Positions 17,131 through 35,368 of a stretch of 44,710 nt of DNA are shown here, piece by piece. The position numbers were made by a program, and so were the translations under genes. Source of the stretch: Alcanivoracaceae bacterium (GTDB lineage: Bacteria; Pseudomonadota; Gammaproteobacteria; Xanthomonadales; Marinicellaceae); NCBI GenBank assembly GCA_016763695.1, contig JAESTH010000220.1, forward strand, positions 1 to 44,710, read 5' to 3'. The stretch's first letter is position 1. Every line of letters starts with the position of its first letter. The notes under the pieces are model-generated. The model was not told the origin of the DNA. It saw only the letters and a list, made by a program, of their open reading frames with translations, and did no database searches.

Positions 17131-18069
17131 TCATTTATTGTTATCAAAAAATAGACGTGTTTTTATCACATCGTCATTAATATGTCTTTTTAATTCGCTT
17201 ATGCTGTCGAATTTTACTTCATTTCTTAATTTATGGTGAAATAAAACTTCAACATTTTGCCCATAAACCTGTTTATTGAAATCCAGAATATGAACTTCCA
17301 GTATATTTGCCACTCCATTAACAGTTGGTCGAGTACCAATACTGGCTGCACCAAGGTATTCTCTATCATCAAAATCAGATTTAAATTTAACCGTAACACA
17401 AAAAACCCCTCTGATTGGTACAAACCGTTTTCCCAGCCTAATATTAATGGTTGGGAAATTCAACTTTCTGCCTAATTGCTGACCTTTGCTGACCTTGCCA
17501 AAAATTGAAAACTTTCGCCCAAGATTAACCTCCGCTGATTTAAATTCATTGTTAGATAAATTTTGCCTAATCTGAGAACTGCTGATTCGCTTGCTTTCAT
17601 TTGAAACCGTAGCAATAGCAGAAACAGAAACTCCCAGAGGTTCACATTGATTTTTCAATGTCTGCAAATTTCCCGCCCTATTTTTCCCAAATTTAAAGTC
17701 ATCGCCAATAATAATATGCTGCGCTTTTAAGCCTTTAATCAGTATCTTGTCAATAAAGTCTTCTGCTGTATATTCTGCAAGGTTTTTATTGAAGTTTAAT
17801 ACACACAGGACATCAACGCCCAATTTTTTAAGCAGATGGTATTTACACTTGAAAGGAGTAAGAATAGCTGTTTTATTGATTCCACTAAAATACTGTGATG
17901 CCAATGGCTGCATGGTTATAACTACCGACTGTAAATTATTTTTATCTGCATAAGCAGCAACCTTTTTAATCAGAACCTGGTGCCCCACATGAACACCATC
18001 AAAGTTGCCAATGGTGACAACAGTGGAGTCAGCCAATGAAGTATATTGTGGGTAGCGAATCAATCTCAA
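17131..18069 (-). CDS. ribF: Bifunctional riboflavin kinase/FMN adenylyltransferase
   Basis: VTIGNFDGVHVGHQ, VIGDDFKFGKNRAGN, SSSQIRQNL, GRKLNFPTINI, GAASIGTRPT. Confidence 0.95.
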   Translation of the reverse strand: MRLIRYPQYTSLADSTVVTIGNFDGVHVGHQVLIKKVAAYADKNNLQSVVITMQPLASQYFSGINKTAILTPFKCKYHLLKKLGVDVLCVLNFNKNLAEYTAEDFIDKILIKGLKAQHIIIGDDFKFGKNRAGNLQTLKNQCEPLGVSVSAIATVSNESKRISSSQIRQNLSNNEFKSAEVNLGRKFSIFGKVSKGQQLGRKLNFPTINIRLGKRFVPIRGVFCVTVKFKSDFDDREYLGAASIGTRPTVNGVANILEVHILDFNKQVYGQNVEVLFHHKLRNEVKFDSISELKRHINDDVIKTRLFFDNNK

Positions 18070-19625
18070 TTTAACACCAATAGATTTTTAACCCTAACTT
18101 TCATAAGCATGAGTGATAACAGATAAACCATTAAACCAACAAATATACATAACATCAAATTAGCCGCTCTTGAATACCACAGCAATTCAGACCATTGACC
18201 CAGGTTTATCAACAACAACACAATTGCTAATGCCATAAAAATACTTGCAAGTAAAATCCTTAAAATCATTGACCACTGTAAAACCCCCTCTGGTATAACA
18301 TTTTGCTTCCTTAAGCCCTTATATAACATATATGTTTGCATCCAACCTGAAACAGCACTTGCCAGAGCCAAACCAACATGCAAAGCAAGCACTTCAAAAT
18401 ACCACAGTATAGCGACAAATAAAACATTCAGAAGCATATTTGCAAACAGCGCTATTATCCCCACTTTTACAGGTGTTTTGGTATCTTTGCGAGAATAATA
18501 GGCCGGCAATAAGATCTTATTGATCACAAAAGCAGGCAAAGCCAACATATAAGCCATTAAACTCAAAGCAGTTAACTCACTGGCACTGCTATCAAAAGCA
18601 CTGTACTGGAACAATGTTATTACGACATTGCGTGCCAGAACTGCCAGGCCAATAGCCGCAGGAATAGCAATAAAAAACCCCAAATTTAATGCCCATTGCA
18701 TTGTCTGCATAAACTTCTTTCTGTCATTTTTAGCAAACTGCTGTGACAAGGTCGGCAAAATCACTGTCGAAATAGCAATAGCGAAAACACCTAATGGAAA
18801 CTCAAGCAATCTATCTGAATAATATAAAAAAGTAACACTGCCTGCAATTGGCAACATGGTTGCAATCAAAGTATCCAATAACAAATTGATTTGTGCAACT
18901 GAAGAACCAAATAAAGTCGGCACCATCAATTTCATGACCTTTTTAACCTTACTGTCCTTAAATCCAAATTTAAACTTTGGAAACAAACCCAACTTCATTA
19001 GTGCTGGAATTTGCACAAGCAATTGCAATATCCCCGCTATTAACACGCCTACTGCAAGAGACTTAACTGGTATTGCAAAAGAATCTCTTAAAAAATAAAC
19101 ACTGGCAATAAGCGAAATATTTAATAATATCGGCGTGGCTGCCGGCAATGCAAATTTTTTATGTGAGTTGAGAATACCACCAGCAAAAGCCACCAAAGAA
19201 ATAAGAGGCAGGTAAAACAGTGTATAGCGCAACATCTCCACAGATTCACTAAACACCTCAGGCTACTCAGCTATCCACTTATAAGCAAATAATGACAACA
19301 CTTGCGGTGCGAATATTTCCATTAACATCCACACAATCAAAACCACTGCCAAGAGACTCCCTGCAATCCTGTCAATGAACTGCTTTAACACCTGTTTGGA
19401 TTCAGTTGCTTTAATATCATTTAAAACAGGCACAAATGCTAAGGAAAAAGAACCTTCTGCAAATAACCTTCTCATGAAGTTAGGAATTTTAAAAGCCACA
19501 AGAAAAGCATCCGTCCAGATAGAGGCTCCAAAAAATATAGCCATAACCATATCCCGAATAAAACCAGTTATTCGAGATATTAATGTAAAAATACTAACAA
19601 TTGCAGTTGATTTAAGAAGACTCAT
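18066..19625 (-). pseudogene. murJ: Lipid II flippase MurJ, interrupted by one in-frame TAG at 19263-19265 (ORFs 19263-19625 and 18066-19256 lie in the same frame)
   Basis: N-part LLKSTAIVSIFTLISRITGFIRDMVMAIFFGAS...NFMRRLFAEGSFSLAFVPVL; C-part LRYTLFYLPLISLVAFAGGILNSHKKFALPAATPILLNI; junction reads FAYKWIAE*PEVFSESVEMLRY. Could still be functional through readthrough, reinitiation or a base-call error. Confidence 0.85.
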
Positions 19626-31322: not shown

Positions 31323-32048
31323 GTGAGGCAAACAACTTTATTTATTGCAGACTTACACTTAAACGATTCACAACCTGAGATATATCAAAGATTCAAAAGC
31401 TTTATTCATGATAAAGCTCAAGATGCTGACTCCTTATATATCTTGGGCGATCTGTTTGAGTACTATTTAGGTGATGATGCTATAACCGATGTTGCACAAA
31501 AAGTTTGCGATGATTTAAACAATCTAACCAGCAAATATCAGACAAAATGTTACTTTATGGCAGGTAATCGTGATTTTTTACTGTCATCTGCCTTTGCGAG
31601 TGCTGCAGGGCTCATCATACTCGAATATCCAAGTATCATTGTACTGGACGACGAAAAACTCATTCTCACACATGGCGATGAATTGTGCACAGATGATATC
31701 GAATATCAAAAAATACGACAGCAATTACGCTCCAAAAAATGGCAACAATGGTTTTTAAGCCTATCATTACAGGAGCGAATAGCGTTTGCCAATCAGGCCA
31801 GAATAAAAAGCCAACAACACACCCAAGCCTCTAAAGCAGAAATAATGGATGTTAACCAACTAGCTGTCGTTAACCTATTTAAACAGCATAAAACCACATT
31901 AATGCTGCATGGGCACACACATCGCCCAGCTTTTCACAATTTTTTAATCGACAATAAACAACACCATAGAATGGTTGTTGGGGATTGGCATCAACAAACA
32001 AGTTACATAGAACACAAAAACAGCAACTTTCAACTGAGCACTTACTGA
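31323..32048 (+). CDS. lpxH: UDP-2,3-diacylglucosamine diphosphatase
   Basis: FIADLHLNDSQP, ILGDLFEYYLGDD, MAGNRDFLL, LTHGDELCTDD, LHGHTHRP; GTG start. Confidence 0.93.
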   Translation: MRQTTLFIADLHLNDSQPEIYQRFKSFIHDKAQDADSLYILGDLFEYYLGDDAITDVAQKVCDDLNNLTSKYQTKCYFMAGNRDFLLSSAFASAAGLIILEYPSIIVLDDEKLILTHGDELCTDDIEYQKIRQQLRSKKWQQWFLSLSLQERIAFANQARIKSQQHTQASKAEIMDVNQLAVVNLFKQHKTTLMLHGHTHRPAFHNFLIDNKQHHRMVVGDWHQQTSYIEHKNSNFQLSTY

Positions 32049-32114
32049 TTTTCATCACCATTATGTGATAAAATATTGCGCTAAATTATTAACATATTCT
32101 TAACGAGGAATAAA

Positions 32115-33632
32115 ATGACTGCATTTGATAAATTAAACGTGATACGCGCATCCAAAGGAAGCGTATTAACCAAAGGTTTAGGTGATGATATTATTACCAA
32201 ATTTCTTGTCAGCGACCCGAGTCTGGCACAAGCGATTGAAACAGCTTATGATAACTTCAATAACATTAAAGCTGAGTTTCCGAACTTGGTCGACATGGAC
32301 GAAACAGCACAAATGCAACATATACAGCAGGATTATGTTAACTTCTATTCTGATGATGCAATTAACCCATATGTTTCACTGGCCGGCAAAGGAGCCTGGT
32401 TAATCACCTTAAAAGGTGCCGTTATACATGATAATGGCGGATATGGTATGTTAGGTGCTGGCCATGCTCCTGTTTTTGTACTTGAGGCCATGAGCAGACC
32501 GCATGTCATGGCAAATATCATGACAGCAGCTGTAGGACAACTTAAACTAAGCCAAGCCATAAAACGCGAAGTTGGACATACCCAGGGTAACTGCCCTTTT
32601 GATAAGTTTTTGTGCATGAACTCTGGTTCAGAGGCCGTAACAGTAGCAGCCAGAATATCAGACATCAATGCAAAAAACATGACGGACAATGGTGGCCGAC
32701 ATGCTGGCAAACAAATAAAAATAATGGCCTTGAAAGGGGCATTTCATGGCCGTACAGATCGACCTGCTCAATACTCTGATTCATCATTGGGTGGATACAG
32801 AAAAAACTGCGCCTCATTCCAGAACAGAGACAACCTAATCACTATCGGTATCAATGACATAGAAGACTTAAAACAGGCATTTGCTCAAGTTGATGCTGAT
32901 AATATCTTTATAGAGTCATTTTTTATGGAACCTGTTATGGGCGAAGGAAACCCTGGCATGGGCATCAGTAGAGAATTTTATGATACAGCTCGTGCATTAA
33001 CTAAAGAACGAGGAACATTATTATTAGTCGATTCCATTCAGGCTGGCTTACGCGCACAGGGCTGCTTGTCAATCGTCGATTATCAGGGTTTTGACGGCAT
33101 TGATGCACCAGATATGGAAACCTATTCTAAAGCACTGAATGCAGGGCATTATCCATTGTCCGTATTAGCCATGACTGCTGATACTGCGGCCATGTATGTT
33201 AAAGGTGTTTATGGAAATACCATGACAACCAATCCTAAAGCCATGGATGTTGCTTGCGAAGTACTAGCAAGAGTTGATGATGCATTCAGAAAGAATATTC
33301 TCGAACGTGGTGTAGAATTTGTTGAAAAGCTTAATGGTTTACAACAGAAATTAAACGGTCAAGTGACCAATGTGCAAGGCACAGGCCTATTATTTTCATG
33401 CGAACTGGCATCAGAGTTCAAAGCTTATGGCACAGATTCAATTGAAGAATTTTTACGTTTTCATGGTGTTGGCGTCATTCATGGCGGAGAAAACTCACTG
33501 CGCTTTACACCACATTTCGCAATCACCTCTGCCGAAGTTGATTTAATTATCGATGCTGTTGAATATGCCATTATTAATGGACCAAAAGCAAACGCAAAAG
33601 ATGAAGTCAACACTTTAGAAAAGGCAAGTTAG
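32115..33632 (+). CDS. Class-III PLP-dependent aminotransferase family protein, divergent
   Basis: GYGMLGAGHAP, MNSGSEAVTVAARIS, KGAFHGRTDRPAQYSD, LLLVDSIQAGLRAQG, SKALNAGHYPLS (PLP Lys), TTNPKAMDVA. Confidence 0.85.
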   Translation: MTAFDKLNVIRASKGSVLTKGLGDDIITKFLVSDPSLAQAIETAYDNFNNIKAEFPNLVDMDETAQMQHIQQDYVNFYSDDAINPYVSLAGKGAWLITLKGAVIHDNGGYGMLGAGHAPVFVLEAMSRPHVMANIMTAAVGQLKLSQAIKREVGHTQGNCPFDKFLCMNSGSEAVTVAARISDINAKNMTDNGGRHAGKQIKIMALKGAFHGRTDRPAQYSDSSLGGYRKNCASFQNRDNLITIGINDIEDLKQAFAQVDADNIFIESFFMEPVMGEGNPGMGISREFYDTARALTKERGTLLLVDSIQAGLRAQGCLSIVDYQGFDGIDAPDMETYSKALNAGHYPLSVLAMTADTAAMYVKGVYGNTMTTNPKAMDVACEVLARVDDAFRKNILERGVEFVEKLNGLQQKLNGQVTNVQGTGLLFSCELASEFKAYGTDSIEEFLRFHGVGVIHGGENSLRFTPHFAITSAEVDLIIDAVEYAIINGPKANAKDEVNTLEKAS

Positions 33633-33644
33633 TAAAAAAGCCTT

Positions 33645-33890
33645 ATGAGTGATAAAAAGCAAAAAGATTCACAAGGAAAAACAATACTGGAGCGGCGGAC
33701 ACAAGACCGGCGCTCCTACGACATTGCTGAAGACTTTGTGGATCGCCGCAGAGTAGAAAGACGTGTTATTAAAGAAGACATAGACTTTGATGATAGGCGA
33801 ACAAAGATAAGGCGATCCAAGATAGTAGGCGTGGATTTTAAAGATCGAAGGAATACAGTCCGAAGAAAGGATGATCGAAAAATAGATTAA
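33645..33890 (+). CDS. Small Arg-rich protein built of four 17-residue repeats
   Basis: 81 aa; RR pairs at residues 17,34,51,68 and 22,39,56,73; DF at 30,47,64. Confidence 0.7.
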
Positions 33891-33955
33891 AAAATGAAAG
33901 TGCTGAAAAACTCTTCCATTTCAAACCAAACAGAAAAATAAAACAGGAAAAAACA

Positions 33956-35368
33956 ATGACAGACAGCTCTGTTGATATATCAATCAAACAAGCATTAAAA
34001 GGTGAGATCACCTTTGATACAATCGTAACCATCAAAGGTTGGGTGAGAAATCGCCGCGATTCAAAAGCCGGATTTTCGTTTATTATCATGCACGATGGTT
34101 CATGCTTTGATGGAATCCAGGTCATTGCTGATAATACCCTGGATAATTATAGTGAACAGATTAAACACTTAACAACTGGCTGCTCTGCCATTATTACTGG
34201 TAAACTGGTCAAGTCTGGTGGTAAGGGACAGACATGCGAAATTCAGGCATCGTCTGTAGAAGTAACAGGTATGGTTGAAGACCCTGAAACCTATCCTGTC
34301 CAACCCAAGCGACACACCATGGAGTTTCTACGTAGTGTGGCACACTTACGCCCCCGTACCAATACATTTAGCGCCATGACCAGAGTGCGCAATACACTTG
34401 CGCAGGCTGTACACAGATTTTTTCATGGCAAGGGCTTCAACTGGATAAGCACACCTATTATTACCGCCAGTGACTGTGAAGGTGCCGGCGATATGTTTAG
34501 AGTGACACAACTAGATTTAGCTAATATACCAATGACAGATAAAGGTGCTGTTGATTATTCCAAGGATTTTTTTGGAAAAGAAACCTATCTAACAGTATCT
34601 GGACAACTAAATGTAGAAACACATGCCCTGGCCTTGTCTAAAGTTTATACATTTGGCCCAACATTCAGAGCCGAAAACTCTAATACAACCAGACATCTGG
34701 CTGAGTTTTGGATGATAGAACCCGAAGTGGCCTTCCATGACTTAAAAGATAGTGCTGATTTAGCTGAAGACTTCTTAAAATATGTATTCAATGCCGTACT
34801 TGAAGAAAATGCAGATGATATGCAGTTCTTCGATAAATTTGTGCAAAAAGGCGTTATCGATAGATTACAATCATTCCAGAAAGATAGTTTTGCTAGGGTA
34901 GATTATACGGATGCTGTTGAAATACTACTGAAATCTGGTAAAAAATTTGAATATAAAGTTGAATGGGGTACAGAGTTACAGACAGAACATGAAAGGTATC
35001 TAGCTGAAGAGTATTATAAAAAACCAACAGTAATCATGAACTACCCAAAAACAATTAAACCTTTTTATATGCACTGCAATGATGATGGCAAAACAGTGGC
35101 ATGCATGGATGTACTTGTGCCGGGTATTGGTGAGTTGATCGGCGGCTCACAAAGAGAAGCTCGCCTGGATGTACTTATAGACAGAATGAAAGAACATGAC
35201 CTTGATCTTGAGGAATACAAATGGTACATAGACCTGCGTAGATATGGTACTGTACCACATGCAGGGTTTGGCTTAGGATTTGAACGATTAGTGAGCTATG
35301 TCACAGGCATAAACAATATTCGTGATGTTATCGCTTTCCCAAGAACACCAGGAAATGCCAAATTCTAA
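33956..35368 (+). CDS. asnS: Asparaginyl-tRNA synthetase
   Basis: [30 protein letters not shown]-like, [78 protein letters not shown]. Confidence 0.96.

Follow-up and report, generated by a model that had tools for sequence, protein, structure and literature searches.

Between the genes for a class-III aminotransferase and asparagine--tRNA ligase (asnS) lies a small open reading frame (ORF) for an Arg-rich repeat protein. The questions addressed here are whether this ORF encodes a genuine protein, how it came to stand at this locus and what its product might do. The window, i.e. the whole stretch of DNA analysed, comprises 44,710 nucleotides of contig JAESTH010000220.1.

The small gene and its neighbours

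Re-reading of the sequence returned the ORF at 33645-33890 with the coordinates and residue positions given in the first-pass annotation, and the Arg pairs were likewise read at residues 17, 34, 51 and 68 and at 22, 39, 56 and 73 (Table 1). The predicted protein contains 18 Arg and has a pI of about 10.4; its 28 basic versus 19 acidic residues give a net charge of about +9. In the window, the stop codon of the aminotransferase gene is 12 bp 5' of the small gene and asnS starts 65 bp 3' of it. The asnS product scored 678 bits against its NCBIfam profile, where the cut-off is 414. In the Arg codons of the small gene CGA, CGG and AGG are frequent; in asnS and the aminotransferase gene AGA is the commonest and CGG is absent.

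Elsewhere in the window, a murJ-like ORF (18066-19625, - strand) contains an in-frame TAG at 19265-19263, after about 120 codons. Since murJ is normally essential, this stop could be a sequencing or assembly error.

Table 1. Position of the small gene, its parts and the adjoining genes in the window
Feature	Position	Strand	Basis
81-aa Arg-rich repeat protein gene	33645..33890	+	ORF reading; ortholog present in 8 of the genus's 10 other genomes
Non-repeat N-terminus, 15 aa, hydrophilic; differs among orthologs	33645..33689	+	Alignment A1
Repeat unit 1, 17 aa	33690..33740	+	ORF reading, alignment, self-comparison
Repeat unit 2, 17 aa	33741..33791	+	ORF reading, alignment, self-comparison; one residue more in 6 of 9 orthologs
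Repeat unit 3, 17 aa; V61 and G62 invariant	33792..33842	+	ORF reading, alignment, self-comparison
Repeat unit 4, truncated to 15 aa	33843..33887	+	ORF reading, alignment, self-comparison
Class-III PLP aminotransferase, 505 aa, upstream	32115..33632	+	Neighbour conserved across the family
asnS, asparagine--tRNA ligase, 470 aa, downstream	33956..35368	+	NCBIfam PRK03932; neighbour conserved

Periodicity of the repeat

Residues 16 to 81 of the window protein fall into four units with a period of 17. When the protein was compared with itself using BLOSUM62, the top score of 66 was obtained at lag 17 and a second peak of 49 at lag 34. Across lags 3 to 39, none of 3000 composition-preserving shuffles matched the score of 66, which rules out a chance repeat. 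Two orthologs treated in the same way also peaked at lag 17, and their scores were reached by 2 and 0 of 3000 shuffles. Between units of the window gene only 17-23 of 45 bases are identical; a recent DNA duplication is ruled out, in agreement with the first-pass annotation, and the repeat is therefore kept at the protein level.

The exact period of 17 that had been noted applies to the window protein, but in most orthologs the spacing slips by one residue. In the alignment, unit 2 of six of the nine orthologs has one additional residue (e.g. NRRKNKDRR), giving RR-x4-RR in these six and RR-x3-RR in the other three, and in G008 unit 4 is longer by one residue. The recurring DF is likewise present in the window protein, but its positions are loosely constrained in the orthologs, with DF, DI, DV, AV or TV in unit 1, DF, DI or NF in unit 2 and DF, DI or EI in unit 3. 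A strictly periodic repeat family is not supported, since the spacing slips and single unit-like motifs are seen in other proteins as well. The slip by one residue points to a flexible chain rather than to a rigid repeat fold or solenoid.

Orthologs and selection

Orthologs are present in 9 of the 11 genomes of the genus (GTDB family Alcanivoracaceae), the window's own included; a search with the single sequence found those in the other genomes at E values from 2e-8 to 2e-19. Metagenome-assembled genomes labelled Alcanivoracaceae, Lysobacterales and Gammaproteobacteria make up the related records. With the aligned family (A1), a search of 299 genomes of the order again picked out these nine and gave nothing else that was convincing. 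A sample of about 1,000 genomes from the order, class and phylum yielded no full-length relative beyond the genus. No convincing paralogs were seen within the genus. Weak matches outside it (E 0.001-0.01 per genome) were rejected as stretches rich in Arg, which often lay in reading frames that probably do not code; the exception was the C-terminal tails of a protein with apparently two transmembrane segments (TMs), described below.

Among the nine orthologs, where G003, G004, G006 and G009 are closely related and do not count as independent, 14 of the 16 Arg positions in the repeats do not vary. Of the other two, one is Gln in G006 and one is affected by a slip of the alignment in G008. V32, I46, V61 and G62 are also fixed, and much else drifts. 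In most of the distant pairs, pairwise counts gave a pS of about 0.6-0.8, which is near saturation, versus a pN of about 0.25-0.37, the ratios being rough because dS is saturated. At most invariant Arg columns the codons differ, many as CGN versus AGR. The stated frame is the sole forward frame that is open in all nine sequences, and every reverse frame is closed in at least one of them. Because the Arg residues are near-invariant although synonymous sites are near saturation, we conclude from these comparisons that the small gene encodes a real, translated protein under purifying selection, chiefly on its eight Arg pairs. Selection at the protein level, as the first-pass annotation had suggested, is thus borne out.

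Known families and predicted fold

Searches of Pfam, NCBIfam and PHROGs returned 0 families each up to E = 10, and consensus-like probes returned none from Pfam. The best PDB match, to the kinetochore protein Spc24, was not significant (E = 0.14), and no paper describing the motif in bacteria was found in the literature. The family had not been recognised at first pass, and it has no relative in these four collections; orthologs in related genomes exist, and the RR positions are under purifying selection. Judged by these searches, the protein is an undescribed family, confined so far to one genus.

AlphaFold2 with the nine sequences gave no confident fold (mean pLDDT 60, pTM 0.20) and short helices only. 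Such low model confidence is consistent with disorder and falls short of proof.

The locus with and without the small gene

In the family members examined, the aminotransferase gene and asnS are adjacent, and in every carrier genome the small gene lies between them, in line, so the synteny with asnS holds in all genomes that have it. The distance from the aminotransferase stop to the ATG of the small gene is 0-13 bp in the carriers, and asnS starts about 12-65 bp after the small gene. In the congener G001 the two flanking genes are contiguous, with a spacer of 119 bp and without the small gene; in G005 the assembly is broken at this junction. Other genera of the family have a spacer of about 100 bp or less here, also without the small gene. 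Gene-less spacers, in G001 and in the other genera, usually hold a terminator-like hairpin. Four of them were folded, and their hairpins, with z from -2.3 to -5.4, were better than nearly all shuffles; three of the four resemble terminators, with a T run. The G001 spacer (L048 1381-1500) folds into a strong hairpin with about 19 pairs, and its whole-spacer MFE of -27.3 kcal/mol was as low in no shuffle. In the window, no terminator-like site was predicted on the + strand from 31900 to 34100, hence none between the three genes. Rfam gave no match at 33500-34100, and an RNA element was ruled out on this ground.

In a tree of the aminotransferase, the nine carriers are compatible with a single change (support 76/90). 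Since this tree does not settle the placement of G001 and G005 within the genus, both one gain and an older gain followed by one loss are possible histories. The GC (0.41) and GC3 (0.34) of the small gene equal those of its neighbours, so there is no sign of a recent transfer. The whole protein searched against phages and a unit-pair query searched against plasmids found no match, nor did a tail query, and a phage or plasmid origin was rejected.

A unit-like motif in other proteins

A unit-pair profile (A2) was searched in 369 genomes of the class and 199 of the order, and most of its matches were chance Arg-rich stretches. One match, in G434, was the end of an apparently two-TM protein, KERRGKKGKDRRQRNIPIDFPDRRKGDRRTA; with E = 0.006 per genome and 369 genomes, about two such matches are expected by chance, and this one was selected. 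The protein has about 105 aa, comes from another gammaproteobacterial family (f148) and is unrelated to the window protein; its two TMs were read from the sequence, and it had no Pfam or NCBIfam match above cut-off. Its C-terminal tail is a one-and-a-half-unit version of the repeat, [DE]RR-x5-IDF-x-DRR-x3-RR. A search with the G434 protein turned up homologs in four further genomes, of which two belong to other genera (loci L182-L184, L186, L187 and L192 in G434, G1039, G1037, G1045 and G1056). Every readable homolog tail ends in the same pattern, which is kept in homologs about 36% identical, e.g. DRRQQNIPIDFSDRRMRDRR, DRRQSMQAIDFPDRRSGIPRR and ERREKSVAINYPERRSIDDRR. Five of six tails scored above all 5000 RR-block-keeping shuffles with the unit-pair profile and the sixth was reached by 8 of 5000, the two closest orthologs of the G434 protein not being independent of the entry match.

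Three further proteins, their identities read from sequence, carry similar but weaker stretches. A polyprenyl-phosphate sugar-transferase-like membrane protein (L095/L108) has such a look-alike at its C-terminus. An RRM-like protein of genus g161 (L104/L105, recognised by eye) has the tail TERRKSERRTIQQGDDF, identical in two congeners. A PilZ-like protein (L103) starts with DRRKSQRR, a stretch found identically in unit 3 of two orthologs.

Because a one-and-a-half-unit version ends the unrelated two-TM protein, the unit may be a short linear motif. We regard it as unlikely that this extends to an undescribed gammaproteobacterial Arg-pair/IDF motif on unrelated scaffolds (membrane-protein tails, the RRM-like protein and the soluble window array) with a common partner, the window gene being a four-copy array that arose within one genus.

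Possible function

The reading we favour, at a probability of roughly 40%, is that of a disordered, multivalent Arg-pair protein that would bind a polyanion, most likely RNA, and would be co-transcribed with asnS. The chain, rich in Arg and acidic residues, would be intrinsically disordered, as suggested by a low-confidence model from nine sequences. Each unit would present two Arg pairs (RR-x3-4-RR), and a short acidic/hydrophobic linker, [IV]-D-F, would set the units apart. Several such sites on one flexible chain could bind tRNA, rRNA or mRNA cooperatively, the acidic residues would curb non-specific aggregation, and the protein might serve as a small RNA- or ribosome-associated factor. Peptides of the RRxxxRR type bind RNA and coacervate with it in vitro, as described for RP3, (RRASL)3, with polyU (PMC6704260). 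The unit-like motif at the end of the RRM-like protein also speaks for RNA; against it, the window chain is partly neutralised by acidic residues, which RP3 does not have. In addition, the conserved IDF/VGVD linker residues suggest a partner more specific than bulk RNA.

Such a partner is the essence of the main rival, which we hold to be doubtful: the unit would be a short linear docking motif, [DE]RR-x3-4-[DE]RR-x5-[IV]DF-x-[DE]RR-x3-4-RR, recognised by a partner protein or by the membrane's inner face, and the window protein a soluble four-copy scaffold, competitor or adaptor. The matching tail on the unrelated two-TM protein, its persistence at about 36% identity, the five tails that beat all shuffles and the stretch ending the sugar-transferase-like protein all argue for docking. 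The entry match, however, is of a quality expected about twice by chance, and Arg adjoining a TM helix is expected anyway from the positive-inside rule.

Binding of c-di-GMP and leader-peptide control are less likely than RNA binding or docking. As a c-di-GMP binder or buffer, which we consider improbable, the protein would repeat in each unit the RxxxR half that the PilZ ligand site has at its N-terminus. RxxxR counts among the established signatures for c-di-GMP (PMC10333796), and R-x3-R occurs in all four window units (R18-R22, R35-R39, R52-R56 and R69-R73). PilZ proteins from the same genus have NERRQFERL or DRRQFKRL at the N-terminus, and the start of the PilZ-like L103 protein recurs in unit 3 of two orthologs. 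Yet the protein lacks both the (D/N)xSxxG half and the beta-barrel, the additional residue breaks RxxxR in unit 2 of six orthologs, and both Arg of each pair are conserved, which is beyond the need of PilZ. Membership in PilZ (PF07238) was rejected, since no Pfam profile matched up to E = 10, (D/N)xSxxG is missing and the model, of low confidence, has no beta-barrel.

Slightly more improbable still is a leader or attenuator ORF whose own translation would govern read-through into asnS. The small gene stands directly upstream of asnS, where relatives hold a terminator-like hairpin, but the ORF in the window contains just one Asn codon and no run of cognate codons, the conservation is that of an amino-acid sequence and not of an RNA structure, and neither an Rfam match nor a terminator-like site was found between the ORF and asnS. 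That the ORF is a functionless chance ORF or annotation artefact, as its small size, its absence from G001 and a family unknown to databases might suggest, is hardly credible, since near-invariant Arg at near-saturated synonymous change, the one frame open in nine genomes and the conserved position contradict it.

Significance and comparison with known systems

The window gene offers a compact natural case of an Arg-pair repeat protein in which selection on the periodic residues has been demonstrated. The comparative setting is clean: within one genus, the locus occurs both with the gene and without it. The possible recurrence of the unit in unrelated proteins is a more interesting lead than the genus-restricted family: if the unit is truly shared, it would amount to an unrecognised bacterial interaction code. 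If it is not, a datable lineage-specific gene in a conserved synthetase locus remains.

Like RP3 and comparable synthetic Arg-pair peptides (RRxxxRRxxxRRxxx; PMC6704260), the window protein has Arg pairs at regular intervals along a short, in its case probably flexible, chain. RP3, however, is designed, has no acidic residues and repeats every 5 residues, whereas the window protein is natural, acidic-rich too and repeats every 17. The [DE]RR-x3-R spacing resembles the N-terminal RxxxR segment of PilZ (PF07238), as in PilZ of the same genus; unlike PilZ, the window protein has no (D/N)xSxxG, beta-barrel or Pfam match and bears two Arg pairs per unit in four units. The tail of the apparently two-TM protein of f148, DRR-x5-IDF-x-DRR-x3-RR, is spaced as units 2-3, but that protein is membrane-anchored, has about one and a half units and is otherwise unrelated in sequence. 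Lineage-restricted (orphan) small disordered proteins are short, charged and taxonomically narrow and have no predicted fold. The window protein resembles them in all these respects; it differs from orphan small proteins in general by the unusually strict periodic Arg-pair constraint in its family and by its fixed position before asnS.
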